From positions 1 to 34,556 of IMG/VR virus record IMGVR_UViG_3300046170_000088: a stretch of DNA of 34,556 nt; one strand, 5' to 3'. Source of the stretch: a virus. Position numbers and translations under genes: made by a program. A model generated the notes under the pieces. The model ran no database searches. It worked only from the letters and a program-made list of their open reading frames with translations, and had not been told where the DNA came from. Shown piece after piece: positions 5 through 32,435 of this stretch; positions within the stretch are counted from its first letter, which is position 1; every line of letters begins with the position of its first letter.

Positions 5-1537
5 TTATCCCACTCTGATTATTCTTGATGTCAAGGGTTTCTTGAAATTATACCCTAAAAAGTTCTCGCCACCACTAAAACTTGCAGCGGAACTTGCCAT
101 CGTTAGTGCAAGTGCGTCAGCTTTATCTGGAGACTTAACACCTCTTTTTTTCATTTCGTCCTTAGACTCTATTTTTATTTTTCCAGTTGATGTATATTTA
201 TAACTAGGTGCTGCCAATTCTGATACAAGCTCATCATCATTAGGAAGTCGGCAATTACGCAGCACCAACCAATCTTTGATTGCGAACCATAACTCAGCTC
301 TTAGGTTTAAATAGTTTTTCTTAGTCGATGGTGCTTCAGCAACATTAACTCCTCTTACTGGTAAATTTTGTTCAGCTAGTCTATCTACAACTCCACTACC
401 AAGACCAATTACGTCTATAAGTATTTCTTGTGGTTGTTCTACGACTGTACTGTCGTCATATAAATTTTTAACTGCACCGCATAATTGCATTAAATCCATC
501 GATTTAAAAGTCTTAATTTCAAGAACAGTATTACCTTGTCTTATACATAGTGCAGAATTATCGCCACCAAAACGTGCAACGTCTAATCCCCATACAATAG
601 GTGCTTTTGTTGTTAGTGCCACGTCTCTGTCGACAGCGTTTCTTGCTAGTTCCATTGGTATGACTGAATCATCATCAGCGTTAGGGAACTCGCCTCGTAC
701 TTCTACTCTAGCAACGGTAGAGTCTTCACCGTATTGTTCTAGCATAGTTTGGAAAAGTTTTTGGTCAGTACCCTCGACTGTGCGTGAGTCTATTTGTTCT
801 AGGTTCCAGAACTTACGTTTAGATGTAAAACTTTCGTAGAAAGGCCCTGTATTTCTTCTGGGGTTAGAAAAAGTAAACCAGAAACGATTTTCTGTAGGTT
901 CGGAAAAGAAACCTTCGGAGACTGAGTAAATAGGAGCTGGAATACCCGATGCTTCATCCATTATCAAACATACTCCGTAAGATGAATGGATACCTGCAAA
1001 CGCATCTGGGTTTTCCTCGCTCCATAACTGTGCTTGGGCGTAGTAGTAGCCCGTGTCTATTTTTAAATCTCTTTTAAGTGCTTCTTCAAACCAACCATCT
1101 GGTTTTATGGTGGTAGCAGTTTTAGAGAACCAATGATTGTTAATTGCTAGTGTTAGCCACTTACCTAATTCAGCCCATGTTCTTGAACGAAGCTGTTGTT
1201 CGGTGTTAGCGGTGACGATGATGGTTGAGCCTAGTCTGGTTGATAGCATCCATAGTATTAACCATGCGACAAGGGCGGACTTTCCTATTCCACGACCAGA
1301 AGCAACAGCAAGTCTAAACATTTCTGGTGTTACTTCGCCTTTATTTCGTTGTATGTGAATTGATAAATCTTTTAAAATTTTTTTCTGCCACTCTCTTGGG
1401 CCTGTAAAATCTTCGAGGGGGGTGTCCTTCTGTCCCCAGGGGAAGATAAACATCACAAAGTTGTATGGATCATCTGCAACTTGAGGTGACCAAACTTCGG
1501 TCATTAGTTGTTGTTCAGCTTCAGCACCGTATTTCAT
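5..1537 (-). CDS. terL: Terminase large subunit (packaging ATPase/nuclease)
   Basis: Motor that pumps phage DNA into proheads through the portal and cuts the concatemer. The 510-residue protein shows a Walker A motif GRGIGKSA at residues 81-88, a Walker B LIMDEAS with D194/E195, and an RNase H-like nuclease domain with acidic residues at D319 (GLDVARFGGD), D375 (ILIDVIG) and D471/D474 (DKADAL). The length is normal for the family and both domains look intact. The ATG overlaps the stop of a 29-codon membrane peptide by ATGA, so translation is probably coupled. The stop lies four bases from the window edge, and the portal frame lies just across the join if the molecule is circular. Confidence 0.96.
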   Translation of the reverse strand: MKYGAEAEQQLMTEVWSPQVADDPYNFVMFIFPWGQKDTPLEDFTGPREWQKKILKDLSIHIQRNKGEVTPEMFRLAVASGRGIGKSALVAWLILWMLSTRLGSTIIVTANTEQQLRSRTWAELGKWLTLAINNHWFSKTATTIKPDGWFEEALKRDLKIDTGYYYAQAQLWSEENPDAFAGIHSSYGVCLIMDEASGIPAPIYSVSEGFFSEPTENRFWFTFSNPRRNTGPFYESFTSKRKFWNLEQIDSRTVEGTDQKLFQTMLEQYGEDSTVARVEVRGEFPNADDDSVIPMELARNAVDRDVALTTKAPIVWGLDVARFGGDNSALCIRQGNTVLEIKTFKSMDLMQLCGAVKNLYDDSTVVEQPQEILIDVIGLGSGVVDRLAEQNLPVRGVNVAEAPSTKKNYLNLRAELWFAIKDWLVLRNCRLPNDDELVSELAAPSYKYTSTGKIKIESKDEMKKRGVKSPDKADALALTMASSAASFSGGENFLGYNFKKPLTSRIIRVG

Positions 1538-1623
1538 ATATTTACCAAAATGATGAATAGTAGAAAATTACCAAGTCCAGCTATGGTGGTGATTTCTATT
1601 ATTTCTTTTATTACCTCTTTCAT
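1534..1623 (-). CDS. 29-residue single-span membrane peptide upstream of terL
   Basis: Tiny gene whose TGA overlaps the terL ATG as ATGA. The peptide starts with a charged helix (MKEVIKEIIEI) followed by a hydrophobic stretch (IAGLGNFLLFIILVN), i.e. an N-terminal amphipathic part and one membrane segment. The Shine-Dalgarno is weak (GAG, 6 nt before ATG). The overlap with terL and the clean hydrophobic pattern support a real gene. Function is unknown: it could be a holin-like or regulatory micropeptide, or simply a coupling leader for terL. The real lysis cassette lies at 30.5-31.5 kb, so a lysis role is only a guess. Confidence 0.5.
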   Translation of the reverse strand: MKEVIKEIIEITTIAGLGNFLLFIILVNI

Positions 1624-1872
1624 ATTCTACTCAAAAAAAATTAAAAAAAATTAGCGCAACAGTTACACGTAATATACCCGTGCGAAAAAATGTAAGGGGG
1701 GGTCAATCATTTAAAATCGGAGCATGATTTGTCAGATTGTGGGCGAACCCTTACTGTTAGCAGTAATGCCTTTTATGTGAATTAGCTAACCGCCCTTATT
1801 ATCATCGTTCTTTATATCGTCTTGGTTATTTACCAGTTGTGTCCGAAGCTGTAGACGTTGATTTAACAGCGT
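1624..1872. other. Non-coding gap between terS and the terL leader peptide, with a 6-bp hairpin
   Basis: No open frame of credible length on either strand. It holds A-runs (1630-1650), a G-run at 1695-1701, and a perfect inverted repeat TTACTG-TTAG-CAGTAA at 1751-1766. No U-tract follows the hairpin on either strand, so it is not a convincing terminator. A gap inside the terminase gene pair is a reasonable place for a packaging start (pac/cos) site, but nothing in the sequence proves this. Confidence 0.4.
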
Positions 1873-2298
1873 TTATAACTTTAGGTTTTTAATAGTCGCC
1901 ATAGAGTCGCCAAGTCTATCTTTTGCGCCAGTTAAAACATCATTCAAATTAATAGTAGCGTGAACATTCTCGACTCGATCCTTCCAGGTCTTTGGGTCTT
2001 GGTTCTTTAGATAAAATATCTGGGCAGTTACGTTGCCATCAGTTGCCGAAGTAAAAAGAGAATTAGTAACCTGGGCCAGTCCTTTGGCTTGACCCCTTTT
2101 TAAAGCCTCCTCAAATTCAGCAGAACGCTTTCTTGAACGGTCTATAGTTGACCAAGAAACGCCCATAGCACGGGCAATCTGAGTTGTTCCTAAACCTCTG
2201 GAAGCAAGATTCTCTACCTGTTCTAAATCTAAATTAATTAACTTTCTACCCACTTTTTTGGGTGGTTTCTTGTCGTTTTCAGTCAAAAATTGCTCCAT
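1873..2298 (-). CDS. terS: Terminase small subunit
   Basis: DNA-recognition partner of TerL, expected to bind the packaging site and recruit the motor. The 141-residue protein has a basic N-terminus (KKPPKKVGRK), a helix-turn-helix at about residues 27-58 (ASRGLGTTQIARAMGVSWST), and a central ATDGNVTAQIFYLKNQDPKTWKDR-type segment (about 88-110) that is characteristic of one large class of phage small terminases. It precedes terL in the same direction, as is usual. A Shine-Dalgarno AAGGAG lies about 18 nt upstream of the ATG, further than ideal. It is divergent from the plus-strand small-gene array and shares its intergenic region. Confidence 0.82.
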   Translation of the reverse strand: MEQFLTENDKKPPKKVGRKLINLDLEQVENLASRGLGTTQIARAMGVSWSTIDRSRKRSAEFEEALKRGQAKGLAQVTNSLFTSATDGNVTAQIFYLKNQDPKTWKDRVENVHATINLNDVLTGAKDRLGDSMATIKNLKL

Positions 2299-2378
2299 AT
2301 TTGAAATTTTTTTATGCTCCTTAGACCCCTATCTTACAACATTCTTCATAAAAACCCTAAGTTTTTTTAGCTAACTAC

Positions 2379-2395
2379 TTGTAATATAAGTACAA
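2379..2395. promoter_or_regulatory. Candidate operator, 17-bp dyad (copy A)
   Basis: TTGTAATATAAGTACAA has TTGTA/TACAA half-sites and covers the -35 and part of the spacer of the array promoter. It matches 14 of 17 positions with TTGTTATATTATTACAA at 5957-5973, in the leader of the MarR-like gene. A shared operator for that regulator is an inference. Confidence 0.4.
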
Positions 2396-2407
2396 TTTAG
2401 GGATAAT
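2379..2407 (+). promoter_or_regulatory. Sigma70-like promoter of the rightward small-gene array
   Basis: TTGTAA (2379-2384) and GATAAT (2402-2407) separated by exactly 17 bp, 34 bp before the strong AGGAGGT ribosome site of the first array gene. It is the only good promoter seen ahead of the 14-gene run. A 17-bp dyad overlaps its -35 and spacer, so it is probably repressible. Confidence 0.6.
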
Positions 2408-2440
2408 GTGTAAGTCAACGAAATACTTTAGGAGGTAAAC

Positions 2441-2785
2441 ATGACAAACACTTACACAGAAAACCTAGCAGACTTTGGACCTAGGCAACTAAAAGAAGCT
2501 GGTAAATTATTATCAGCAATCGGGAACGGCTTACCAGATGATTTTTATGACCAAGGAATAAAAGTTGGCTGGAATATAAACTCTGGATATGTCTTTTTAA
2601 CTAATGATGATTACCAAGTTGCTATGTATGATGATGAAAGCGAAGAACTATACAGCTTCTACACTACACCATACGAAGGTAGAGAGGGTTGCTATGAAGA
2701 ACTACTGCAAGAATATGACGACATGCACCCAGAAGACCAAGAGTTCATGAACGACATCAAACAATATAACAGGAAGGTGGCGTAA
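2441..2785 (+). CDS. Conserved small acidic phage protein, first gene of the array
   Basis: 114 residues, strongly acidic (many D/E, notably in the last 50 residues), with a GLPDDFYDQGIKVGWN segment at about 30-45 followed by NSGYVFLTNDDYQVAMYDDE. I recall similar NSG-VFLTN-YQVAM proteins as conserved hypotheticals in other phages; no function is known to me. The ATG follows an excellent AGGAGGT at 2430-2436. Its stop overlaps the next ATG as TAATG. The acidic character would fit a DNA-mimic or protein-binding role, but that is speculation. It is probably the most highly translated gene of the array, given its promoter-proximal position and ribosome site. Confidence 0.85.
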   Translation: MTNTYTENLADFGPRQLKEAGKLLSAIGNGLPDDFYDQGIKVGWNINSGYVFLTNDDYQVAMYDDESEELYSFYTTPYEGREGCYEELLQEYDDMHPEDQEFMNDIKQYNRKVA

Positions 2786-2895
2786 TGAGTAATTCAATAT
2801 TAAACAAAGCAAAAGACACTTTCATTCAAGAACAAGTAGAAGATAGTTTTAATGATTATAAATTTATAATGAGTGTTTTATATGAACCACTTTAA
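2785..2895 (+). CDS. Small protein of unknown function (36 aa)
   Basis: Reads MSNSILNKAKDTF and ends at YEPL. Predicted helical and mixed-charge, with no recognised motif. The ATG overlaps the previous stop (TAATG) and has the ribosome site AGGTGG, both supporting expression. Its end overlaps the next start by 14 nt. Context alone (tight array) makes it believable. Confidence 0.6.
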   Translation: MSNSILNKAKDTFIQEQVEDSFNDYKFIMSVLYEPL

Positions 2896-3010
2896 AAACG
2901 AAGTGAATAAAATGTCTGAAAAAGAATTTAAAGACTATTTAGAAAATGAACTTGGGTACTCAGAAGAAATGATAAGTAATTTATTCAAATTAGAGGCGGT
3001 GCAACAATGA
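2882..3010 (+). CDS. Small helical protein of unknown function (42 aa)
   Basis: Reads MNHFKNEVNKMSEKEFKDYL and ends EAVQQ. Highly charged and helical; the segment FKDYLENELGYSEEMISNLF looks like a short helix-turn-helix-like fold but matches nothing I know. No Shine-Dalgarno is visible, and translation could be coupled to the upstream gene, which it overlaps. An alternative start is the internal ATG at 2912. The stop overlaps the next ATG (ATGA). Confidence 0.55.
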   Translation: MNHFKNEVNKMSEKEFKDYLENELGYSEEMISNLFKLEAVQQ

Positions 3011-3177
3011 AAACGCGATCACACAAAAGCATTATCGGACAACTTCGCAAGAAGTACGGCCTAAAAGATAATACGCCTATTCACAAAGTAGAGCAAATAA
3101 TGACAGCCGAGGACTGGCAAGCGTTTAGCACCGCTTTAACCTTTCCAAATGGTAAACCATCACAAAGGGGGAAATGA
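3007..3177 (+). CDS. Small basic protein of unknown function (56 aa)
   Basis: Basic N-terminus (MKTRSHKSIIGQLRKKYGL) followed by a helical stretch ending PSQRGK. Strong ribosome site GAGGCGGTG before the ATG. ATGA overlaps at both ends (with 2882-3010 and with the next gene) show tight translational packing. No motif recognised; it could bind nucleic acid given the basic N-terminus, but that is a guess. Confidence 0.65.
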   Translation: MKTRSHKSIIGQLRKKYGLKDNTPIHKVEQIMTAEDWQAFSTALTFPNGKPSQRGK

Positions 3178-3374
3178 TGTTGACTAAAAAAGAACTAGAA
3201 AAGAACAACTGGAATATAGTTCCAGAGGGCGTATGGTTTGGCGTTGATTATGCTGAATCACACAAAGTAAACGTATTAGATGTGCTTACTGATTTGTTAG
3301 ACCTTGATACGGATGCCGAGGGTTATAACTTTGTTGTATGTGCATATAAAAAAGAAGGGGGAAATGATGAGTAA
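3174..3374 (+). CDS. Small protein of unknown function (66 aa)
   Basis: Starts MMLTKKELEKNNWNIVPEGV; acidic middle (LLDLDTDAEGY) and a hydrophobic FVVCAY strand near the end. Mixed alpha/beta, no motif recognised. The ribosome site is a G-run (AGGGGGAAATGATG); the second ATG at 3177 has better spacing and would give 65 residues. The same ribosome-site/start sequence recurs before the next gene. Confidence 0.7.
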   Translation: MMLTKKELEKNNWNIVPEGVWFGVDYAESHKVNVLDVLTDLLDLDTDAEGYNFVVCAYKKEGGNDE

Positions 3375-3606
3375 ATTTAACAAACAAAAAACCATAGACA
3401 AAATTGTTGATGATTTTGGCAACTGTAGAATGAATAGTCACTGGTTTTCTAAAAGTGAAACACAGATCGAATGGTCAAGCCATCAAGAAGTGTATTTAAT
3501 ATTACATCAAGATAAAACCTGGGACTATGCCGAACCAAAACATTTAGATATGTATGTTGAGGATTTAGAAGTTCAAGATTTAAAAGAATATGCAGGGGTC
3601 AACTAA
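3364..3606 (+). CDS. Small protein of unknown function (79-80 aa)
   Basis: Start placed at 3364 (or 3367, giving MSKFNKQKTIDKIV), because the ribosome site AGGGGGAAATGATG sits here; an upstream in-frame ATG at 3304 lies inside the previous gene and has no such site. The protein has paired aromatic segments (HWFSKSETQIEWSS, YLILHQDKTWDYAE), suggesting a small beta-rich fold. It overlaps the previous gene by about 10 nt and shares one base with the next start (TAATG). Unknown function. Confidence 0.7.
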   Translation: MMSKFNKQKTIDKIVDDFGNCRMNSHWFSKSETQIEWSSHQEVYLILHQDKTWDYAEPKHLDMYVEDLEVQDLKEYAGVN

Positions 3607-3692
3607 TGGACCTACAAACATTACTAATACTTATGTTCATGGCTTTTTGTCTTTATGGAGTCGCACTAATCATTAAGGATAAAGATAAATGA
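3606..3692 (+). CDS. 28-residue single-span membrane peptide
   Basis: Reads MDLQTLLILMFMAFCLYGVA then LIIKDKDK: one hydrophobic span of about 20 residues with a positively charged C-terminal end. AGGGG lies 8 nt upstream, and both junctions overlap (TAATG before, ATGA after). Too short for standard gene callers. Likely an inner-membrane micropeptide; role unknown. Confidence 0.65.
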   Translation: MDLQTLLILMFMAFCLYGVALIIKDKDK

Positions 3693-3937
3693 TCTTTTCA
3701 ATAAACATCAACGGCTTAATCGTTGACTGGTGCTACACCATAAACAACCATGAGAAGCAGTATCATCAAACATGGATACCTAAACTCAGCGACATACAAA
3801 TAATAACCAAGGAATTAAAGGGTCTTACAGTTAGCGAAGTTAGAAAGCTAATACTTGAAGACATGCAACCAGATATACAAATGGTGAGAGATAACACCAA
3901 CAAGAAGGCGAGAGCCAGGAGGGAAAAAAATGTCTAA
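3689..3937 (+). CDS. Small protein of unknown function (82 aa)
   Basis: Begins with a beta-like segment (MIFSININGLIVDWCYTI), then a helical region (LTVSEVRKLILEDM) and a basic tail (NKKARARREKNV). Ribosome site AAGGA before the ATG; ATGA overlap with the membrane peptide upstream and 8-nt overlap with the gene downstream. No domain recognised. The basic tail also encodes the AGGAGG ribosome site of the next gene. Confidence 0.75.
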   Translation: MIFSININGLIVDWCYTINNHEKQYHQTWIPKLSDIQIITKELKGLTVSEVRKLILEDMQPDIQMVRDNTNKKARARREKNV

Positions 3938-4172
3938 AGATGTAGATAGAATAAAAGAACTAATAGAAATAGAACGCGACCTTAAAACAGTGCCAGTGAA
4001 AGATGTTGAGAGAGTCTATACCGTTGAGTTTATGCCTATTGAATTTAATATATTCGTAGGCAACAAAGCACCAACGAGGGAAGAAGTAGGCAGGGCAATC
4101 ATTCAAGAGATTGAGAATGATACCTTTTATTACAAAGAAGTTATTAAACACGTTAAGCAAGATGATGAATAA
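3930..4172 (+). CDS. Small acidic protein of unknown function (80 aa)
   Basis: Reads MSKDVDRIKELIEIERDL at the start, a beta-like VYTVEFMPIEFNIFVGNKAP in the middle and a helical acidic end. Strong AGGAGG ribosome site. The segment APTREEVGRAIIQEI resembles generic helix N-caps rather than a known motif. Overlaps the membrane peptide that follows by 11 nt. Function unknown. Confidence 0.72.
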   Translation: MSKDVDRIKELIEIERDLKTVPVKDVERVYTVEFMPIEFNIFVGNKAPTREEVGRAIIQEIENDTFYYKEVIKHVKQDDE

Positions 4173-4251
4173 CCTAATAACTAAAATAGTATTTATGACA
4201 ATCTTAATTTGTTTATGGTTATTGTTTCTAATGAACGGTGGTATCAAATGA
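4162..4251 (+). CDS. 29-residue single-span membrane peptide (second in the array)
   Basis: Starts MMNNLITKIVFMTILICLWL and ends FLMNGGIK: a short polar N-terminus and one strongly hydrophobic helix. The ribosome site is weak (AAGCAAG), but it begins inside the end of the previous gene and its TGA overlaps the next ATG (ATGA), so coupling is likely. Same size and layout as the peptide at 3606-3692 but with no sequence similarity. Role unknown. Confidence 0.6.
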   Translation: MMNNLITKIVFMTILICLWLLFLMNGGIK

Positions 4252-4520
4252 AGATTGATCCGCACCAACTAGAACAAGCAACCGCATTTATATTAGAAAC
4301 CAATAAATATATTTACGAACAAGCAAAGGAACTAGCAACGCAACACCTGGAAGCGGAGGACAACAAGAACTTCAAATTTAGGATTAAACGCTATGAGCCA
4401 GAAAGCAAAGAAACGCTTTTGCATTTCGCTGATGAGATAACCGCATGGGCTGAATGTGAAAAGAACTATCCGCTTATGGATTTCATAGATAAATTTTTTA
4501 AAATTAAAAAGGGGTACTAA
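4248..4520 (+). CDS. Small helical protein of unknown function (90 aa)
   Basis: Start set at 4248 (MKIDPHQLEQATAFILETNK): it has a GGTGG ribosome site and an ATGA overlap, while the longer frame from 4209 runs over the membrane peptide. Almost all helical: residues 5-45 form an amphipathic helix pair (YIYEQAKELATQHLEAE), and the end is FIDKFFKIKKGY. No motif recognised. The stop overlaps the next start (TAATG). Confidence 0.72.
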   Translation: MKIDPHQLEQATAFILETNKYIYEQAKELATQHLEAEDNKNFKFRIKRYEPESKETLLHFADEITAWAECEKNYPLMDFIDKFFKIKKGY

Positions 4521-4687
4521 TGATTAGAGTACAAATACACGGAACAACAATTTTTGGATACGTCCGAGGAGACTACAAAGAAAATAATCTCAAAAGAGTT
4601 GCTTTTCTTGACGAGGAAACCAAACAAGTAAGACGAGTCACTAAAAACCAAATTAAAGAAACTTATCAAAAAGAGAGGTATAACTGA
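4520..4687 (+). CDS. Small basic beta-rich protein of unknown function (55 aa)
   Basis: Reads MIRVQIHGTTIFGYVRGDY and later RVAFLDEETKQVRRVTKNQ. The alternation of strands (IRVQIHG, IFGYVRG, KRVAFLD, QVRRVTK) suggests a small SH3-like or OB-like barrel, a fold often used for nucleic-acid or protein binding, but this is only an impression. AGGGG ribosome site; overlaps both neighbours by one base (TAATG, TGATG). Confidence 0.68.
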   Translation: MIRVQIHGTTIFGYVRGDYKENNLKRVAFLDEETKQVRRVTKNQIKETYQKERYN

Positions 4688-4932
4688 TGAACAAAGCTAA
4701 ATTAGTAAAACTAGCAGATGAAGTATTGACTGATATTGATGTTGATTTAGAAAATTTATTAAGAGCAAATTTAGAGGAAGAATTGTGCAATCAACTTCAT
4801 AGTAAATTTTATAATGCTCGTAATTTTCTTAAGGGCAAGCTAGCACACGGTGTTGGTTATGTCGTAGATGAAAAATCTTATAAATCTGTAAAACCAATAT
4901 TAGATGAAGCTATAAATAAGCTGTTAAAATGA
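4687..4932 (+). CDS. Small helical protein of unknown function (81 aa)
   Basis: Starts MNKAKLVKLADEVLTDIDVD; continuous amphipathic helices (LENLLRANLEEELCNQL, ILDEAINKLLK). GAGAGG ribosome site, one-base overlap with the previous stop and ATGA overlap with the next gene. No motif recognised. Confidence 0.72.
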   Translation: MNKAKLVKLADEVLTDIDVDLENLLRANLEEELCNQLHSKFYNARNFLKGKLAHGVGYVVDEKSYKSVKPILDEAINKLLK

Positions 4933-5066
4933 GATTTATTAAAAAAATACAAAAATCAGGTATTTCATGGACAATAAAAAATGAAAAAAAACTTTTTAAA
5001 CATTTTGTAAAAATGGGTAAGTTTCCTAAACAAATTTCTACAAGCGGCAAATTAACGTATAATTAA
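4929..5066 (+). CDS. Last gene of the array, small basic protein (45 aa)
   Basis: Reads MRFIKKIQKSGISWTIKNEK and ends GKLTYN; very basic (about a quarter Lys/Arg) with aromatic residues. It is coupled to the previous gene by ATGA, with no separate ribosome site. It faces the oppositely oriented HTH gene 48 bp downstream. A small imperfect hairpin (TGAGA/TCTCA, 5081-5096) lies between them, without a U-tract. Function unknown. Confidence 0.55.
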   Translation: MRFIKKIQKSGISWTIKNEKKLFKHFVKMGKFPKQISTSGKLTYN

Positions 5067-5114
5067 CCAATCACGGAAGCTGAGAAGGGTATCTCAAACC
5101 CCCTAAAGTATAAA

Positions 5115-5372
5115 TTACTCTTCTTGGCTTTCTCTCTCCAACATCACACCCAAACCAACGAATAAGAAATGCTTATGTTGAACGCCCCTCTTTAGGCTTC
5201 GCAAAACTTTCCTCTCCCCATCAATCGCACACCAAATAATGTTCTGATCCATAAGATTTTGAATACCTTTACTAACGGTCTTCCTGTTCATACCAATCAT
5301 TAACGCCAAGTAGCTAACCGCATCATGGCTTGAATAATCCTGGGCCGAATACCTCTCGCACAAAGCATACAA
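5115..5372 (-). CDS. HTH_36-like DNA-binding protein, C-terminal part after a frameshift
   Basis: Reads as 85 residues from a TTG at 5372 that has GGGAG 9-10 nt upstream. The segment VSYLALMIGMNRKTVSKGIQ and what follows is a clear helix-turn-helix of the type in phage/plasmid replication initiators and HTH_36 proteins. The frame continues upstream without a start to a stop near 5394 and there encodes REKLV, the expected beginning of the first helix (REKLVLYALCERY). The 55-residue gene just upstream ends in the matching DLKG one frame away. The two are probably halves of one protein of about 145 residues. C-terminal residues 55-85 match nothing I know. It may control replication or early transcription. 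Confidence 0.62.
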   Translation of the reverse strand: MYALCERYSAQDYSSHDAVSYLALMIGMNRKTVSKGIQNLMDQNIIWCAIDGERKVLRSLKRGVQHKHFLFVGLGVMLERESQEE

Positions 5373-5385
5373 GACTAGCTTCTCC

Positions 5386-5553
5386 CTACCCTTTTAAATC
5401 GGTTCTGCCCAGATGTTTCTTATACCACTTCCAGACAACCTTCTTCAGCTTCGAATAGCTCTTATACTTCATGGCTACACCGTAGGTTATCAACCCACTC
5501 TTCTCTGGCGTTTCAATCGCTTCTACGACTAACCACCACTTTTCCTTATTCAA
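5386..5553 (-). CDS. N-terminal half of the frameshifted HTH_36-like gene (55 aa)
   Basis: Starts at a TTG directly after the stop of the MarR-like gene, with AGGGCGG about 8 nt upstream. Reads EKWWLVVEAIETPEKSGLIT, a middle YGVAMKYKSYSKLKKVV and ends RTDLKG before TAG. Removing one base at the AAAAGGG run (5389-5395) joins it in frame to the helix-turn-helix part downstream, giving DLKGREKLVLYALCERY, a typical family sequence. Seen directly: the compatible frames. Inferred: that they are one gene. A stand-alone small basic protein is the alternative. Confidence 0.58.
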   Translation of the reverse strand: MNKEKWWLVVEAIETPEKSGLITYGVAMKYKSYSKLKKVVWKWYKKHLGRTDLKG

Positions 5554-5919
5554 CTAACTAACCGCCCTGAGACTAAAATCCCTTTTCGTAAACCATTCAT
5601 TCATTAACACCATCGAGTCTGGGCAAATCGTATAGACTCTCTCCCTCTTATCCTTCCCTACGTCCTTGCACATATACCCTCTCGCGACAAAGTCCTCTAA
5701 CACCGTTGCCACCGTTGACCGACTCCCCATACTGCTAGGCAATAGTTTCACTATTGTTTCAAAATTAATGCTTTTGCTACTCGCGTCAGCAATAGCAACT
5801 TCCAACACCAATAAATAATGCAACGGGTCAGACCACCAGAACGCCATGAAACCTTTACTCCGCTTATTCCTGTAAAACTCATCTCTCGCTTCTATCATTC
5901 TTGCTTCTAACTGTTTCAT
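5554..5919 (-). CDS. MarR-like winged-helix transcriptional regulator
   Basis: 121 residues with a winged-helix layout: scaffold helix about 33-48, helix-turn-helix about 52-80 (GSRSTVATVLEDFVARGYM), and a basic wing (KDVGKDKRERVYTI, about 85-98), as in MarR/PadR-type regulators. No effector-binding motif can be read. The ribosome site is TAGGAG and the leader (5920-6056) holds a possible promoter and a dyad shared with the array promoter. It is a candidate repressor of the small-gene array and of itself, and perhaps the lysis/lysogeny regulator, since no CI-like gene is present. This role is inference. Confidence 0.7.
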   Translation of the reverse strand: MKQLEARMIEARDEFYRNKRSKGFMAFWWSDPLHYLLVLEVAIADASSKSINFETIVKLLPSSMGSRSTVATVLEDFVARGYMCKDVGKDKRERVYTICPDSMVLMNEWFTKRDFSLRAVS

Positions 5920-5956
5920 TGTATGCTCCTATAATTTTCACGATTCATTTAGTGAT

Positions 5957-5973
5957 TTGTTATATTATTACAA
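5957..5973. promoter_or_regulatory. Candidate operator, 17-bp dyad (copy B)
   Basis: TTGTTATATTATTACAA lies 37 bp upstream of the MarR-like start and overlaps its possible -10. It agrees at 14 of 17 positions with the dyad at 2379-2395 over the array promoter. The AT-rich composition raises the chance of coincidence. Confidence 0.38.
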
Positions 5974-5991
5974 CCCAACATTATCGGTAAA
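5962..5991 (-). promoter_or_regulatory. Possible promoter for the MarR-like gene
   Basis: On the minus strand, TTTACC (5991-5986) and TAATAT (5967-5962) are 18 bp apart, about 40 bp before the start codon. A weak -35 makes this tentative; the overlap with dyad copy B would allow autorepression. Confidence 0.35.
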
Positions 5992-6014
5992 TTTTACTGA
6001 TATTTTTTACCCCT

Positions 6015-6043
6015 GAGAGATGAGCCGACAGGCTCACTCTCTC
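6015..6043. other. Strong hairpin beside the iterons
   Basis: TGAGCC-GACA-GGCTCA at 6021-6036 is a perfect 6-bp stem, extended by GAGAGA (6015-6020) against TCTCTC (6038-6043) with a one-base bulge, so about 12 bp in all. No U-tract follows on either strand, which argues against an intrinsic terminator. Its place between the iterons and the AT-rich stretch 5940-6010 suits an origin element, an operator or an mRNA leader structure. Confidence 0.55.
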
Positions 6044-6056
6044 TATTAGTCTAGTC

Positions 6057-6128
6057 TTGGATATATGGGTACCCGTATGGTCAATCATTGGGTATATGGG
6101 TACCCTGCTATTGGGTATATGGGTACCC
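6057..6128. repeat. Three iteron-like direct repeats with GGGTACCC cores (candidate origin)
   Basis: Three copies of an 18-bp unit: TTGGATATATGGGTACCC at 6057-6074, TTGGGTATATGGGTACCC at 6088-6105 and again at 6111-6128. Copies 2 and 3 are identical and copy 1 differs at one base. Unit starts are 31 and 23 bp apart. Each contains the 8-bp palindrome GGGTACCC. They sit just downstream of the primase-helicase module and upstream of the regulator, with an AT-rich stretch nearby. This arrangement is usual for initiator-binding iterons, but operators for a regulator are equally possible. Confidence 0.65.
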
Positions 6129-6130
6129 AA

Positions 6131-6262
6131 TCAAGTATCCTTCTTTTTGTCTTTTTTAGACTCTTTTTTGGTCTTTTTCTTACTAAATATTCTATCCCAA
6201 TTATCCTCAAATATTTTCTTATCTATTTGCCTTGGTCTTTGGTCGCTTCCCTTCCCATTCAT
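6131..6262 (-). CDS. Small basic phage protein (43 aa), GKG-RP type
   Basis: Reads MNGKGSDQRPRQIDKKIFED, then NWDRIF and a lysine-rich tail. The pattern GKGS-x-x-RP ... F-x-x-N-W-D-x-IF is one I recognise as a short conserved hypothetical in many phages. ATG preceded by GGAG at 8 nt; the gene lies 12 bp after the primase-helicase stop, in the same operon. The basic tail suggests nucleic-acid binding. The stop is three bases from the last iteron. Confidence 0.75.
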   Translation of the reverse strand: MNGKGSDQRPRQIDKKIFEDNWDRIFSKKKTKKESKKDKKKDT

Positions 6263-6274
6263 TTCATTTACTCC

Positions 6275-8134
6275 TTAGTCCCAATCAAAGGACTTTTTAT
6301 TTTGATCTAAAATTTCTAAAACTGCGCCACGTCTAACCAAAGTTTTGGTCGCATAATCTACGTTGCCAGAATTACTTTTAACTAGACTGGCTTTTACAAC
6401 TGCCATTCTGTCTACCTCAATACCTTGCTCCAGGCATATCTTTTCGCAAGTATCGTTATCCGCTAACCACATAGCGATAGCAAAACGAACTGAGTCAGTA
6501 ATACTTGAAGCACCACGTATCTCAGCACGGTGCGAAAGTGCATCGTCTGAGTCATTAGTAAGGGCAGATTTTGCCAAGTGATGAACTGTGAGACAGGTAA
6601 TACCTAACCTTGCGCTAATATTTGCACAATAACTACCCCATAACTGGCCAACTTCATTGCTTGAACTAATATTTCCCGTTGTAAATGCTTGTAATGGGTC
6701 GAATACAACCAGTTTTAAATTTGGTATTGTCTTTAATTCTTCTACTAACTCAGTTGCCTGGGACGTAATCCCTTCTTCTCTTAATAAAATCATTGGTTCT
6801 TTTTGTTCTGGAATAGGAAATACATAAACGTCATACTCGGATTGAAAACGTAAACCTAATGGGTCTAACGCATCAATCCTTCTATGCACTTCCCCAAGAT
6901 CATCTTCAGCTGCAAAAATTACAGTAGAGCCTTTTTGTTTTATGGTTTTACCCCACCAATCACCGCCAGTTGCAATGCCTAAAGCTAATTGAATCATTGA
7001 TAAAGATTTACCAACGCCACCGACAGCTGCAATGATGCCTGGTTTACCAAAAGGAATGAAACTATCTACTAACCACTCTATTGGTTTTGGTTCTTCAACC
7101 AAGTTGCGAATAGCATATTGTCTAATATTAAACTTAGACTCTATTAACTCTAACCTAACTTGTTCTAATCCCTTCTCTAAATACAAATCATTGAAATCAC
7201 CAATAATAGAAGGCAATCTGGAAACTGCATTAGTAATACTATTGACTACTTCATTGGCACATTTCTCGCCAATCCCAGAGGTATCGTTATCAAGTGCAAT
7301 AATAAACTTTGCACCTGTTATAGAACGCAATCTCGTACACGCAGAGACACAGAAATTTGCAGAGAATACCACCGCGACAGGTAAACCCGTAGCTTCGTAT
7401 ATAGAGGCTCCTGTTGCATATCCTTCACATAAAATAATTGTTTCTAAACCAGGTAATTCATGCGCTTCACAACCAATTAAGAATACATTTCCTTTAACTT
7501 CACCACCTCCAGCAAACTTTTTACTGCCATCTGGCATGATGTATTGAAGTGACTTTATTTCTGAAACTAATATTCCATTATCATTATTTCTTATGATAGA
7601 ATGCACCCCGATTAATAGGTTTCCATTAATCGTTTTTAAACCATAATTTTTAATCTTTTTATCTGTGAGATACTTATGCTCTATAACTTCATTCGCACCA
7701 GCAAACTTTTCCTTAACGTATACGGCAACTTGTTCATGCTGTATTTTCTTAGCCTCCTCTCGCCTCTTTTGTGCCTCTTCCAGCTTGGTTTGTAATACCC
7801 TTTTTTGCTCGGCAGACATCTCATTAGGATTATAAGAAGTAAACTTGTTTTCTAAATTGGTTCTCCAATTACCATAAACGCACACAAAGTTTTGATCTAA
7901 CTGGTTATAAACATAATACCCAGAACGCTCACCACCCCTATCTGGTCGATGGTTAGGACCAGCACTTACTGAAACTCTAACTAAGTTCCCTGTCGTATCT
8001 AAATAATCAACTAACAAACCATGAGAACGCATCTCATTGATTAAGTCAGCATTAGATTTACTTGTATTACTAAAGGCATAGTTGTCATCTATAACAACGC
8101 CCTTATCTCCATAAAATTGTGTTAAGTCAGTCAT
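6275..8134 (-). CDS. Toprim primase / RepA-like helicase
   Basis: Probable bifunctional replication protein that makes primers and unwinds DNA at the fork. With the start at 8134 (MTDLTQFYGDKG, coupled to the upstream stop by an 8-nt overlap) it has 619 residues. A Toprim domain spans about 230-300: ILCEGYATG with the catalytic glutamate at about 237, and ALDND with metal-binding aspartates at 282 and 284. An AAA_25/RepA-like ATPase follows: Walker A GGVGKS at 372-377 and Walker B VVFDP at 476-480. The N-terminal 100 residues lack an obvious zinc ribbon. An upstream in-frame start at 8173 is possible but lies deep in the previous gene. No DNA polymerase accompanies it. Confidence 0.88.
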   Translation of the reverse strand: MTDLTQFYGDKGVVIDDNYAFSNTSKSNADLINEMRSHGLLVDYLDTTGNLVRVSVSAGPNHRPDRGGERSGYYVYNQLDQNFVCVYGNWRTNLENKFTSYNPNEMSAEQKRVLQTKLEEAQKRREEAKKIQHEQVAVYVKEKFAGANEVIEHKYLTDKKIKNYGLKTINGNLLIGVHSIIRNNDNGILVSEIKSLQYIMPDGSKKFAGGGEVKGNVFLIGCEAHELPGLETIILCEGYATGASIYEATGLPVAVVFSANFCVSACTRLRSITGAKFIIALDNDTSGIGEKCANEVVNSITNAVSRLPSIIGDFNDLYLEKGLEQVRLELIESKFNIRQYAIRNLVEEPKPIEWLVDSFIPFGKPGIIAAVGGVGKSLSMIQLALGIATGGDWWGKTIKQKGSTVIFAAEDDLGEVHRRIDALDPLGLRFQSEYDVYVFPIPEQKEPMILLREEGITSQATELVEELKTIPNLKLVVFDPLQAFTTGNISSSNEVGQLWGSYCANISARLGITCLTVHHLAKSALTNDSDDALSHRAEIRGASSITDSVRFAIAMWLADNDTCEKICLEQGIEVDRMAVVKASLVKSNSGNVDYATKTLVRRGAVLEILDQNKKSFDWD

Positions 8135-8504
8135 CAGCCTGTGCCTTGGAGTTATTGAGATAACTTGACACAAGCCTTCTTATAAAACTAATCCTGTCTT
8201 CTTTAGTCCATTCATGCAGGACAAAGGATTTATTTTTTTTAGAAACTTCTAGGTACGTTGACTTACTATCACTTAGTGCAACAGATAACAGCTCCTCGTT
8301 AATCTGTGCGAAATTTTTAATTTGCTCCATTTTTTTACCTTCTCCAATAAATTTAAGATGTTCATAACAACAGGCACCTTTAATCTTGCCGTTGCGGATA
8401 TGAAGTAGCGGAGAGCTAAGTCCATGACAGTATGAACATAGACTCGGCCTCCGATACTTAAGATCATCATTATTAAAAAGGTAGGTCGTCTTCGTCTTCG
8501 ACAT
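8127..8504 (-). CDS. Small Cys-motif protein of the replication operon (125 aa)
   Basis: Start set at 8504 (MSKTKTTYLFNNDD); the longer frame from 8612 reads over the SSB gene and has unnatural composition. A cysteine cluster at about residues 23-46, CSYCHG ... GACCYEH, resembles a small zinc-binding knuckle. The rest is helical with a charged C-terminus (SFIRRLVSSYLNNSKAQADD). It overlaps the SSB gene by 32 nt and the helicase by 8 nt. Possible roles are a helicase-loading or recombination-mediator-like accessory, but nothing in the sequence decides this. Confidence 0.72.
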   Translation of the reverse strand: MSKTKTTYLFNNDDLKYRRPSLCSYCHGLSSPLLHIRNGKIKGACCYEHLKFIGEGKKMEQIKNFAQINEELLSVALSDSKSTYLEVSKKNKSFVLHEWTKEDRISFIRRLVSSYLNNSKAQADD

Positions 8505-9202: not shown

Positions 9203-9312
9203 TACTTCGCAATCAGTTTACCAATTTCAGTCCACGTCTTTTCAGCTCTAACTATAAAGTCATCGCCTTCTTCTACGACTGATATTTGTTCTGGTAATCC
9301 GTATCTGTTTTT
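9202..9312 (-). other. Displaced C-terminal coding segment of the Sak4-like gene
   Basis: From the A-run at 9312-9308 the +1 frame reads NRYGLPEQISVVEEGDDF and continues to GKLIAK, stopping at 9204-9202 exactly where the next gene starts (TAATG). NRYGLP after an ESPA-x-VA strand is the usual end of AAA_24/Sak4-like proteins. In the frame as sequenced this is lost and replaced by an arginine-rich tail. Confidence 0.7.
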
Positions 9313-9985
9313 CGGCTACACAAGCTGGGGATTCAGTGGTCACTAATATCCTTCCAGATTGAACAGTCTTACTTGTTAGTCCTTTACTACCTTGAACTTT
9401 TACAGTTCCTTTTTTGTAGTTTAAGAACAAACACATATCACTTGCTTCAAGTACCAAGGCACTTGCTGCTTTGTGCATTTTAAGTTCATGCCTATCGTAT
9501 GCCTCAGTAGACGGATCGTGAAATGCTTTGATTTGGTTATGAGCAATCATAACGATACGCATTTTCTTTTCGTTTCTTAATATATTTACTAAATCAAGAA
9601 CCTCTCTCCAATACTTCAACGCTTCTGCATACCCACGACCATAACCAAAACTTTCAATCGAAGGTTGTTTATGTGCTTCACAAGTCTTTGCATGAATAAG
9701 TGGCTCTAACCAATCTAAACTATCAATAACTAAAGTGTTGTATTCAAGTTCATCTGCATCAACTAAAGATTTTAAATACCCGTGAAAAGTATCGTAGTCT
9801 TTTGATAATGGAAAGTGAGGTATATCTCTGTTGTTAGTTAAGATTCCCAAACCTTCTTCAGTTTGCAAGACAACAGGATTTTTACTTCCTACTGCAAGTG
9901 TTGTTTTACCTAACCCAGATGGGCCATAGATAATTACAATACTTGGTTTTGCTTTTGCTTTCTTTTGTATTGCTGCTAAAGACAT
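9260..9985 (-). CDS. Sak4-like RecA-fold ATPase (AAA_24), frameshifted near the C-terminus
   Basis: Probable single-strand annealing recombinase that works with the phage SSB. Walker A GPSGLGKTT at residues 21-29, Walker B LVIDSLDW at about 85-92, and a VMIAHN sensor-like strand at about 145-150. As sequenced it has 241 residues and ends in an odd RTNISRRRRR tail. Deleting one A from the five-base run at 9308-9312 restores NRYGLP and a 260-residue protein ending at 9202. Start ATG has AAGGAG and overlaps the previous stop (TAATG). Function by family: Sak4 proteins act in phage recombination and replication. Confidence 0.87.
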   Translation of the reverse strand: MSLAAIQKKAKAKPSIVIIYGPSGLGKTTLAVGSKNPVVLQTEEGLGILTNNRDIPHFPLSKDYDTFHGYLKSLVDADELEYNTLVIDSLDWLEPLIHAKTCEAHKQPSIESFGYGRGYAEALKYWREVLDLVNILRNEKKMRIVMIAHNQIKAFHDPSTEAYDRHELKMHKAASALVLEASDMCLFLNYKKGTVKVQGSKGLTSKTVQSGRILVTTESPACVAEKQIRITRTNISRRRRR

Positions 9986-10285: not shown

Positions 10286-11020
10286 TTAATTATCCTCCAT
10301 GGATTTATAGGTTTCGCAAACTTCTTTGTGTGAACAGAATTTGCACCAATTTCCAGCATTAAAGCTAGGCTCATCACCCATCGCTTCATCACAAGCTGGT
10401 TTCAGAATATTCAAACCCCAGTCAACTAAGTCGACTGCTTGAATATCCCAAGTTCGTATAGGCCCATCTTTATGAAAGGCTCTTTTGTTTGGTTGTACGA
10501 TTGTCATTTCAATGACTGTATCTTCATTGCCCCATCGTGATAGGCAACCTAGGGCATAGCACATTAGCTGTTCGTTCATCACAACATCTACCGCCCAAGC
10601 ACCAGACTTTAAATCACCAACGACCATTCTATTACCTTCGCCAAGGATAACTGCATCAGCAGTTCCCCAAAGGTCATCATTTATATCTGGAGCATTTACT
10701 TTTTCTTCTACAAGTAATTTACCGTTAAGTTCTTCAGTTCTTTTATTAATATAATCAACATAGATTTCTGCCATGTCGATGTCATCTTGCGTAATATCAA
10801 AACTAAAACCATCTACATCTACTGTTCTACCAAGATAATAGTCAGCTAAAGAAATACCATCTAATCTATTTTTAAGTAAGGCTTCTACCATTTCGTGAGT
10901 AGAAGTACCTCTGGCTGCTGCCATGCTACCTTTACGTTCCGCAGCTGCATTTATCTTTGCACTAGCAGGGCAACGAATAATTCTATTAATACTACTGGGT
11001 GATAATATCGCGTGTGGCAA
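10286..11020 (-). CDS. Cas4/DUF2800-like PD-(D/E)XK exonuclease with Fe-S cysteines
   Basis: Probable exonuclease that prepares single-stranded ends for the Sak4-like annealing protein. 244 residues. Nuclease signature: H42, the GTAD motif with D122, DLK at 136-138 and Q151-x3-Y155. Four cysteines, C17 (RCPAS) plus C226, C229 and C235 (NWCKFCSHKEVC), match the arrangement of Cas4/AddB-type 4Fe-4S clusters. The start is a TTG at 11020 with GAGGAG 7 nt upstream, overlapping the previous gene by 29 nt. DUF2800 proteins are common beside phage SSB and annealing genes. All key residues are present. Confidence 0.85.
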   Translation of the reverse strand: MPHAILSPSSINRIIRCPASAKINAAAERKGSMAAARGTSTHEMVEALLKNRLDGISLADYYLGRTVDVDGFSFDITQDDIDMAEIYVDYINKRTEELNGKLLVEEKVNAPDINDDLWGTADAVILGEGNRMVVGDLKSGAWAVDVVMNEQLMCYALGCLSRWGNEDTVIEMTIVQPNKRAFHKDGPIRTWDIQAVDLVDWGLNILKPACDEAMGDEPSFNAGNWCKFCSHKEVCETYKSMEDN

Positions 11021-11414
11021 GTCCGTACTCCTCTCTTATTAATGATGCAAATAGTTCCGTAGAAATATTCATTGCAACATTGAAATCTTCCATTTCAAAT
11101 AAATTATTTTTAAGTGCGTAAGTGTTAGCTATCATTACGCGCCAGTCTGATCTGTCAGCTCTAAACCATAAGCATGGTAAGAGTCTTACCTTCCTTGCTT
11201 GCGTGGTTGTTTGTTCCCAGAAGTTTTTTAAGTCTCCTGGTGTGATAACTTTTCTTCTTTTAACTTCGATAGCAAAACCATCTAAGCCTAGTAAGTCGTG
11301 GCCACCACCGAATGTTTGTGAGTAGTTAACTTCTAATTGAATACCTAAAAGTTCTTTGATTTCATCAATAACTTCTCGCTCACCTCTGCGACCTTTGTTT
11401 CGCGCGTTGACCAA
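10992..11414 (-). CDS. PD-(D/E)XK nuclease, possible Holliday-junction resolvase-like
   Basis: 140 residues with the compact nuclease layout: GRRGEREV (E12), GGGHDLLGL (D40), and AIEVKRRK (E50, K52), followed by a WEQTTTQA helix (about 66-73) that is typical of small resolvase/VRR-like endonucleases. Start is TTG at 11414 with GGAG at 6 nt, just after the excisionase stop. As the second gene of the early operon, it probably acts on branched or damaged DNA during replication and recombination. Exact substrate cannot be read from the sequence. Confidence 0.78.
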   Translation of the reverse strand: MVNARNKGRRGEREVIDEIKELLGIQLEVNYSQTFGGGHDLLGLDGFAIEVKRRKVITPGDLKNFWEQTTTQARKVRLLPCLWFRADRSDWRVMIANTYALKNNLFEMEDFNVAMNISTELFASLIREEYGLATRDIITQ

Positions 11415-11761: not shown

Positions 11762-12037
11762 ATGAGTATAGATAACGTAACTCCTGGAGAGTGGGACAGA
11801 GCTAGAATGAAAGCAACACAAAAACAAATTGGTGGAAGCCATTATAAAGATAAAGGTATTCAACCTTTAGAGTACGCGTATAGCAATGGACTAACGCCTA
11901 ACTTAACCAATGTAGTTAAGTATGTGACTAGAGAGAAAGAAGATAGAGTGAAAGACTTACGAAAAGCTATTCACTATATCGAACTTGAATTAGAAATGGT
12001 CTATGGTGTTGACCCAGAAGGTAATCCAATAGACTAA
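11762..12037 (+). CDS. DUF3310 family protein
   Basis: 91 residues with the DUF3310 signature: QIGGSHYKDKGIQPLEYAYS (about 21-40), then NVVKYVTREK and DLRKAIHYIELELE. This domain is common in phages, sometimes called nucleotide-kinase-like by annotation transfer, but its activity is not established. Strong GGAGGA ribosome site. It is the only plus-strand gene between the small-gene array and the end of the window, and it converges with integrase: the two stops overlap by 4 bp. The last 15 residues (YGVDPEGNPID) are variable in the family. Confidence 0.88.
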   Translation: MSIDNVTPGEWDRARMKATQKQIGGSHYKDKGIQPLEYAYSNGLTPNLTNVVKYVTREKEDRVKDLRKAIHYIELELEMVYGVDPEGNPID

Positions 12038-13113
12038 TTAGACATCATTATCTTGGTCATGTAGTCGCCTACGTTTTGCATTTCTTTGATTGCTCTTGGC
12101 TCTCTTACTTTACGATAACGTAAAACAGCAGACATACTCTTATGACCAGATAGTTTCATTAGTTCTGGTAGTTCCATAATCTCACCAGCCATAGTACAAA
12201 AGTTATGTCTTAGATCATGCAACCTTAGTTCTGGTCTACCAATCTTTTTAGCTAGTTGTTTCCACATCTTGACAGGGTAATCTACATCTAAGATGTATTC
12301 TCCCTTTCTCTCTAGCTTATTAATAACCATCATAGCTTGATTGCTTAGATAGATGACTCTATCTTCATTAGTCTCATGGTCGGTCTTATGTTCGCTTAGA
12401 ACTATCTTGTTATCTTTTAAATCAGACCACTTGGCACTGCCTATCTCACTCTTACATCTACCGCCAGAGTGCATACAAAGTTCTATGTAATCTAAAGAGC
12501 TAACAAAGTTAGGTCGAACAGTTTGTCTTTTAATGTTTATTTGTCTTTGTAATTCAGCAAACTCTTTGTCTGATATTTCATTCTCACTAATCAGTTCTTT
12601 GTTTAGTTTAATTTTACAAGGGTTTATTTCTACAAGTGACAATGCTATCGCATGGTTATAACAACCAGATATCATTTGGACAACTCTGTTAGCAGCATAA
12701 GAACCTCTTTTAGATATTTCTAAATGTAATCTTGTAATATCACCCCTAGTTATATCTGTTAGATTTCTTTTACCTAAATCATTCTTAACATCTTTATCCC
12801 ACATTCTTACATACTCGCCAGGCTTACCGTTCTTGTTAGGCATAGCAACTCTTCTTTTATTTTGTATTAACTTATCAATGTAATATTCAAACGCTTGATT
12901 TAAAGTTTCTCCGCCTCTGGTATTTAATGGATCAATACCTTGTGCAACTTCACCAAGTATTTGTTGTGCTTTGTTTCTTGCTACATTAATTGGTATGTCT
13001 CTAGTACCAAGAGTAAGTTCTCTCTTCCTTCCATTAATGCGATAGAAAACTCTATAAGTTTTTTCTGTGATTAATAAATTGTTTACCTTTGTATCTCTTT
13101 TATATCTAGCCAT
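12034..13113 (-). CDS. int: Tyrosine-type integrase
   Basis: Catalyses integration into, and with an excisionase excision from, the host chromosome. 359 residues from the ATG at 13113, which has GGAGG 8 nt upstream; an in-frame TTG at 13128 overlaps that ribosome site and is less likely. N-terminal DUF4102-like arm-binding region (about 1-70), core-binding region about 70-170, and a catalytic domain with R219 (SGGRCKSEI), K243 (EHKTD), H299-x-x-R302 (LHDLRH), H324 (SGHKS) and nucleophile Y333 (LRYRKV). All catalytic residues are present, so it looks functional. attP lies about 0.17 kb upstream of its start. Confidence 0.95.
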   Translation of the reverse strand: MARYKRDTKVNNLLITEKTYRVFYRINGRKRELTLGTRDIPINVARNKAQQILGEVAQGIDPLNTRGGETLNQAFEYYIDKLIQNKRRVAMPNKNGKPGEYVRMWDKDVKNDLGKRNLTDITRGDITRLHLEISKRGSYAANRVVQMISGCYNHAIALSLVEINPCKIKLNKELISENEISDKEFAELQRQINIKRQTVRPNFVSSLDYIELCMHSGGRCKSEIGSAKWSDLKDNKIVLSEHKTDHETNEDRVIYLSNQAMMVINKLERKGEYILDVDYPVKMWKQLAKKIGRPELRLHDLRHNFCTMAGEIMELPELMKLSGHKSMSAVLRYRKVREPRAIKEMQNVGDYMTKIMMSN

Positions 13114-13135
13114 AACTCGTACCTCCAAGCAGAGT

Positions 13136-32252: not shown

Positions 32253-32435
32253 TTAATGTATTAAAGTTACTTTAGAAGATATTAGTTCTGAGTCGTGAGG
32301 TATTTGTAAAAATACCAAAGCAACTCTTTTAGCATCTTCCAAGCTCTTAGCTTTTATATCGTTACCGCAGTAGATAAAATCTCCGTCAAGAAATTCTAAG
32401 TCGTAAATCTTATCCGATTGGTTGGTTATTGCCAT
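32253..32435 (-). CDS. Small protein after portal (60 aa)
   Basis: Reads MAITNQSDKIYDLEFLDGDF, then KAKSLEDAKRVALVFLQIPH. One beta strand and one helix; the AKSLEDAKRVA segment resembles generic small-domain helices. It overlaps the portal end by 26 nt. No motif recognised. Confidence 0.65.
   Translation of the reverse strand: MAITNQSDKIYDLEFLDGDFIYCGNDIKAKSLEDAKRVALVFLQIPHDSELISSKVTLIH

Follow-up and report, generated by a model that had tools for sequence, protein, structure and literature searches.

The 34,556-base IMG/VR virus record IMGVR_UViG_3300046170_000088, referred to here as the window, comes from a group of uncultured, marine, integrase-bearing phages of the podovirus type and carries at positions 2441 to 5066 a block of small, overlapping genes. 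This block is probably an accessory, early operon for anti-defence or host takeover, which is built like the nin region of phage lambda and is exchanged gene by gene. In related phages the architecture, place and gene order of the block are maintained, single genes turn over with breakpoints at the gene junctions, junction sequences are reused, and most of the genes are under purifying selection. The initial annotation of the window had proposed an early, host-takeover or accessory type of block, a classification that is supported: homologous blocks exist, and they maintain their gene order.

Architecture of the small-gene block

The block runs rightward, with the terminase genes terS and terL and the replication genes on the other strand, as originally described. 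Fourteen rightward open reading frames (ORFs) lie at 2441-5066, matching the fourteen small genes first counted in 2.6 kb; however, ORFs 2 and 3 are halves of a single gene, which is intact (74 amino acids, aa) in the relatives L003, L016 and L127 (our handles for related loci) and is interrupted in the window by one additional base near 2888, which five of five covering relatives lack. Fourteen separate genes are therefore ruled out, and the block holds 13 genes, one of them broken. Stop/start overlaps, previously noted at nearly every junction, were found at 13 of 13 ORF junctions and measure 1, 4, 8 or 11 nucleotides (nt), with 14 nt at the split between g2 and g3.

A TTGTAA-17-GATAAT promoter had been proposed to precede the genes, followed by an AGGAGGT site. 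The promoter-like site is present at 2379-2407 with AGGAGGT downstream of it. Taken by itself, the pattern does not exceed chance (10 promoter-like sites in 1500-6300 against 15.5 expected), but such a site recurs at the corresponding place in at least 33 of 73 distinct relatives, where 8 would be expected; this count is a lower bound because the regular-expression scan missed -10 boxes of the TATCAT type. An imperfect inverted repeat, TACTTGTAATATAAGTA, at 2377-2393 overlaps the -35 region, with TACTTGATATATAAGTA in many relatives, and is possibly an operator. The leader TACTTTAGGAGGTAA is common to unrelated first genes, and the leader core ACTTTAGGAGGTAA was counted 64 times in relatives' blocks, in front of first genes that are not related to each other, and 0 times in 1.01 Mb outside.

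The features of the block are listed below. Shared junction sequences are called linkers and are named after the end of the upstream protein, the leading slot denotes the first or second gene position, and dN/dS is the ratio of nonsynonymous to synonymous substitution rates.

2379..2407, + strand: promoter-like site TTGTAA-17-GATAAT
2424..2440, + strand: leader ribosome site TACTTTAGGAGGTAAAC before g1
2441..2785, + strand: g1, 114 aa, acidic (net charge -16), leading-slot gene; median dN/dS 0.14
2773..2790, + strand: junction GAAGGTGGCGTAATGAGT, VA-type linker with ribosome site, stop and start
2785..3010, + strand: g2+g3, single 74-aa gene, split by a 1-nt insertion near 2888
2993..3010, + strand: junction GAGGCGGTGCAACAATGA, VQQ-type linker
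3007..3177, + strand: g4, 56 aa, among the commonest block genes; cluster 1, 48 members; median dN/dS 0.12
3165..3179, + strand: junction AAGGGGGAAATGATG, first copy of a 15-bp direct repeat flanking g5
3174..3374, + strand: g5, 66 aa; median dN/dS 0.08
3355..3369, + strand: junction AAGGGGGAAATGATG, second copy of the 15-bp direct repeat flanking g5
3367..3606, + strand: g6, 79 aa; 10 loci; median dN/dS 0.12
3606..3692, + strand: g7, 28 aa, apparent single-span membrane peptide (by eye); cluster 2, 35 members; median dN/dS 0.26
3689..3937, + strand: g8, 82 aa; cluster 4, 29 members; median dN/dS 0.13
3930..4172, + strand: g9, 80 aa; median dN/dS 0.15
4162..4251, + strand: g10, 29 aa, apparent single-span membrane peptide (by eye); cluster 5, 15 members; median dN/dS 0.38
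4248..4520, + strand: g11, 90 aa, most constrained block gene; 35 loci; median dN/dS 0.05
4520..4687, + strand: g12, 55 aa; cluster 3, 31 members; median dN/dS 0.15
4687..4932, + strand: g13, 81 aa; 11 loci; median dN/dS 0.58
4929..5066, + strand: g14, 45 aa, basic, last gene; 3 members only, near-identical

No block ORF gave a significant match in Pfam or PHROGs, in agreement with the earlier remark that none has a known enzyme motif; the best score, of g11 to nSTAND3, was 20 bits and below the 27.2-bit cut-off. The two ORFs previously described as single-span membrane peptides (3606-3692 and 4162-4251) also look so to us, judged by eye. The dN/dS medians, 0.05-0.38 in g1 and g4-g12 and 0.58 in g13, point to purifying selection on most block genes; the basis of the ratio is thin for g2 and g14, where homologues are near-identical only, and for g3, which has one informative comparison.

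Gene turnover and junction reuse among relatives

Relatives were identified by scans with g1, TerL, g11, g5, g13 and g6, the TerL scan contributing the best 80 of 479 TerL-positive stretches. These scans provided 84 distinct related blocks, of which 59 are complete, extending from terS up to the first replication-side gene. All lie between terS and the replication genes, on the same strand and behind the conserved leader, and called ORF length amounts to 145,674 bp on the block strand versus 462 bp on the opposite strand. Complete blocks hold 3-14 genes, and 351 of their 503 junctions overlap or abut. BLAST clustering grouped the block proteins into 202 clusters, 108 of them single-member, where "unrelated" clusters are those lacking BLASTP similarity at E 1e-4, so that distant relation between clusters is possible. 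A search for homologous blocks with genes conserved in order, proposed with the initial annotation, was carried out and found them: order is constant in 149 of 158 co-occurring pairs against 17% expected from shuffles, which overstate independence because the blocks are related by descent. Cluster 0, in which single linkage merges the g9 and g11 families, was left out of this test.

The content of the blocks changes within this fixed order. Between phages whose TerL is 97-100% identical, the shared part of the window's block genes ranges from nearly all to under half, and outside L003 no two relatives share the window's full gene set. The proposal of joint action in a single undescribed system is not supported, as genes are gained and lost singly even at this level of TerL identity. 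A fixed module is ruled out by the turnover, and the unit of inheritance, judging from these sequences, appears to be one gene within a shared transcript. That the 13 proteins nevertheless form one jointly acting, undescribed machine is very improbable. The single promoter, the overlap at all junctions and the conserved order would suit such a machine, as would the co-occurrence of g4, g7, g8, g10 and g12 above expectation (210 versus 127 pairs); however, genes are lost, gained and replaced independently, the full window set is shared only with L003, and relatedness also predicts co-occurrence of the downstream genes.

The breaks between shared and differing sequence fall sharply at start codons. 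Among 91 independent cases with the same left gene and a different right gene, 67 breakpoints lie at -14 to +6 of the start codon, and 123 of the 141 mirror cases have theirs at -16 to +4; a breakpoint near the junction is expected by construction when neighbours differ, and the sharpness is the informative part. The junction sequences also recur between unrelated genes. GAGGTGGCGTAATGAGT is found again at the junction after the first gene, and the VA-type group joins 15 left and 19 right clusters. The VQQ-type linker joins nine left and nine right clusters, the AAGGGGGAAATGATG-type junction after g4 precedes nine different right clusters, and further linker families are represented by GCGGTGCAACAATGA, GAGCAAGACTAATG, GAGCAAACACAATGA and GAGCTGAACCAATGA. 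In L310 the g2/g3 gene has the VA-type GAGGTGGCGTAATGAGT at its end instead of the GAGGCGGTGCAACAATGA of the window, and the genes that follow differ; clusters 55 and 56 occur both with and without an appended (V)EVA.

A C-terminal -VA is found in 18 of 156 upstream clusters, where 0.3 are expected, and its Val codon varies synonymously (GTG, GTA, GTC and GTT), as would be seen if the shared -EVA were a protein tag such as a degradation signal rather than a junction at the DNA level. We regard a tag as scarcely credible, since codon choice is far off local usage at both codons, the sequence always lies on the next gene's ribosome site, and other junctions end their upstream proteins in QD, VQQ, QTQ or LNQ.

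A more serious alternative, to which we assign about an even chance, is that the reused junctions are convergent, good coupled ribosome sites rather than exchange linkers, the mosaicism stemming from illegitimate recombination on which selection then acted. Each linker is in part a plain ribosome-binding site, and coupled junctions outside the block are also alike, with 0.14% of nonhomologous pairs at least 85% identical versus 0.50% inside. Additionally, an IMG/VR-wide scan for the linker 17-mer returned 63 loci; 44 or 45 of these, one being doubtful, belong to other viruses, and almost all coincide with the in-frame end of a gene. On the other hand, the upstream gene at 18 of the 63 loci clearly belongs to the block of this small phage group, and 14 of the 18 -VA clusters use GCG for the Ala against 13% GCG usage (p = 8e-10). 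Linkers of the VQQ and LNQ types are shared to the same degree although they make poor Shine-Dalgarno sites, and one gene bears two different linkers in different phages. The 17-mer thus does arise by convergence and yet is concentrated in this block, and junction reuse fits recombination at linkers and selection for a good coupling site with common descent alike.

According to one proposal, phage mosaicism is seeded by short sequences conserved at boundaries, although most boundaries lack them (PMC3029335), and short homologies are favoured by phage recombinases (PMC3945230). This phage encodes Sak4, an exonuclease and RusA; exchange could proceed through these at short homology, or through illegitimate recombination and selection.

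The leading slot and the g1 family

Ten clusters (7, 8, 10, 11, 21, 28, 37, 47, 56 and 61), that of g1 included, occur only at the first or second position. Exactly one of them is present in 60 of 83 blocks and two in two blocks, i.e., 2 co-occurrences versus 21.7 expected, and no count this small came out of 5000 shuffles. One of the ten, cluster 37, has a match to the Ocr-like PHROG 2568 (phrog_2568) at 2.4e-6, and L128 has an ArdA (PF07275, 4.7e-16) as its third gene, immediately behind a VA-type linker. Both families act on incoming DNA. These matches suggest anti-defence as the role of the leading positions, and with one of about ten leading-slot alternatives Ocr-like, the most likely job is early counter-defence and host takeover. 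Proteins of the leading slot exceed the other block proteins in length (median 117 versus 65 aa, p = 2e-6), and mean net charge is -8.5 or lower in six of the ten clusters.

Several points weigh against the favoured reading of an accessory, early operon for anti-defence or host takeover, among them the shared descent of the blocks, owing to which shuffles overstate independence. The acidity of leading-slot proteins is not significantly above that of other block proteins (p = 0.13), two of the ten clusters are neutral or basic, and only 2 of 150 cluster representatives match families named as anti-defence. Mutual exclusion may also reflect one physical slot rather than one function. Most of the 150 representatives were without a match in the profile libraries, NCBIfam giving nothing useful. 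The idea that leading-slot proteins are acidic DNA mimics was not supported for all of them by the charge comparison.

The integrase of this phage raises the alternative of lysogeny-linked cargo (morons), expressed from the prophage and protecting or modifying the lysogen, for example by superinfection exclusion. The block's own sigma-70-like promoter, its orientation opposite to the neighbours and the two apparent single-span membrane peptides agree with such cargo. We nevertheless consider it unlikely, given the activity of Ocr-like and ArdA proteins noted above, which is well established, and given that no moron-type defence genes were recognised in Pfam, PHROGs or NCBIfam, PADLOC not having been searched.

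The leading gene of the window, g1, belongs to a family found in about 100 viral contigs, with homologues in HTVC034P (gp03, 56% identity), BcepSauron (gp59), BcepSaruman and the archaeal virus Drs3 (Drs3_00037); the family thus spans viruses of bacteria and archaea. Its alignment has 13 invariant columns among 70 sequences, and g1 keeps family columns such as G13, P32, F35, N45, S48-G49, V51-F52-L53, N55, G83 and D99. An AlphaFold2 model of g1 (mean predicted local distance difference test score, pLDDT, 94) gave three strong matches in BFVD, including the Drs3 homologue (E 1.3e-8). Nothing significant was found in the PDB (Foldseek, VIA-align), where the top Foldseek row was ArdB at noise level (E 1.3, template modelling score 0.25), and the best hit of the g1 profile among sequences of solved structures, to CdiI immunity proteins at 0.03, was not significant. 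Searches of plasmids gave no match at E 1e-3, and those of prokaryote genomes only one, in a 4.7-kb Bacteroidota metagenome-assembled genome contig that may be viral. No profile match and no significant PDB match links g1 to Ocr or ArdA, results with which a distant relation to either is compatible. A counter-defence function of g1 is probable but unproven. The more ambitious claim, in which linkers are a true exchange system (a portable ribosome site, stop and start allowing in-frame, ordered swaps via short homology), the leading slot is a holder of one counter-defence gene out of many and g1 represents a new anti-defence family of bacterial and archaeal viruses, is doubtful in our view.

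Under the favoured reading of an early, exchangeable operon, host RNA polymerase would transcribe the block from the 2379-2407 promoter as a single polycistronic message. Ribosomes would load at the strong leader site and move along the chain by reinitiation at the overlapping stop and start codons; translation is proposed to be coupled in this way because the overlaps carry the ribosome-binding site of the next gene. A set of small proteins would be made, the first being the leading counter-defence candidate, and exchange of genes at junctions would renew the set. Since each junction is a self-contained stop, ribosome-site and start signal, single genes could be swapped with neighbours undisturbed and order kept. 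For early timing, promoter use, coupling in vivo and anti-defence function, we infer from the anatomy of the block and from analogy with known overlapping gene pairs, Ocr and ArdA.

Related systems and genomic surroundings

The closest known counterpart is the nin region of lambdoid phages, whose genes are exceptionally tightly packed with ATGA overlaps (PMC8022706) and which Kroger and Hobom (1982), as cited there, called a "chain of interlinked genes". In lambda and P22 the region belongs to an early operon, its tightly packed small genes are for the most part nonessential, and it is mosaic between related phages (PMC8022706). The block shares with it a chain of small co-directional genes with stop/start overlaps, but ATGA is only one of several overlap types here. 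No nin protein (e.g., NinB or NinG) was matched in Pfam or PHROG searches of the window genes or the 150 cluster representatives, so the block is nin-like in working and not a nin region by descent.

Small early genes are also shuffled at short conserved sequences in the hyperplastic early regions of T4-type phages (PMC4503421, PMC3950731). As these two papers describe the PeSLs of Arbiol et al. (2010), such sequences are intergenic and consist of a promoter and a stem-loop, whereas the shared sequences of the block are overlapping stop, ribosome-site and start junctions within one transcript. The block junctions are thus not PeSLs, because overlapping genes leave no intergenic space for cassettes. 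T7 Ocr and ArdA are paralleled by the Ocr-like and ArdA proteins near the promoter in relatives' blocks, but none of the window's 13 genes matches either family. Finally, gp03-gp06 of Pelagibacter phage HTVC034P comprise the g1 homologue in a small same-strand gene run with a weak g5-like match (35%) downstream; however, no other block gene was matched there, gaps lie between most of the genes, and the rest of the genome around them differs.

Regions of this kind are therefore already known. What is new is the phage group, the conserved but uncharacterised families of g1 and g5, the leading slot with its mutually exclusive genes, and the repeated use of in-frame junctions. Orphan small ORFs become an ordered catalogue of about 200 protein clusters, all from a single position in this phage group, in which the slots follow a logic of exclusive leading genes, fixed order and reused junctions. 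If the leading slot is truly devoted to counter-defence, its uncharacterised members would form a ranked list of candidate new anti-defence proteins, headed by g1. How single genes are exchanged without operon damage is a long-standing question of phage mosaicism, for which the junctions provide a testable case.

The g5 family is strongly conserved at 40 viral loci, with 25 invariant columns in 32 sequences, and is found in other marine viruses. Its homologues L129-L167 lie in similar small same-strand gene runs in other groups of marine viruses, often convergent with a different terminase-small-subunit-like gene, and two copies (L153 and L154) share one 65-kb contig. Neither g5 nor g11 had a match among 50,697 phage records, and the predicted fold of g5 (mean pLDDT 67) was too weak for a fold search.

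The neighbouring genes identified in the window are as follows.

5-1537: TerL
1873..2298, - strand: terS (terminase small subunit), left block border, divergent; phrog_309, 3.1e-30
5115..5553, - strand: convergent replication-side gene, right block border and block anchor in relatives
6275-8173: primase/helicase
9260-9985: Sak4-like annealing protein
10286-11020: exonuclease
10992-11414: RusA resolvase
12034-13128: integrase
27012-27953: major head protein
32410-34467: portal

TerL is nearest, among annotated phages, to that of environmental phages (50% identity) and then of epsilon15-like podoviruses (36%). Megablast of the first 25 kb of the window against phage records gave no match, and a distant DNA search with 1800-6300 matched only HTVC034P, over g1. 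No Rfam family and no tRNA was detected in the window.

The gene terS anchors the left end of the block in all relatives. It is 47 to 98% identical among phages with TerL about 100% identical, and because of this divergence terS, which adjoins the block, seems to be exchanged too. At the right border, relatives have a single gene in place of ORFs 5115-5372 and 5386-5553; in the window it is divided by a 1-nt insertion near 5388, which is absent in 50 of 50 relatives. Frameshifting indels confined to the window, in comparison with nearly all covering relatives, were found at 1885, 2888, 5388 and 9313, the C-terminal parts of terS and Sak4 being among the places hit. Their occurrence at several places makes assembly or sequencing error a likely cause and suggests that they are sequence errors or private mutations of the contig. 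Beside the integrase, a rightward ORF of 91 aa (11762-12037, + strand) matches the C-terminal part only of phage nucleotide-kinase families.

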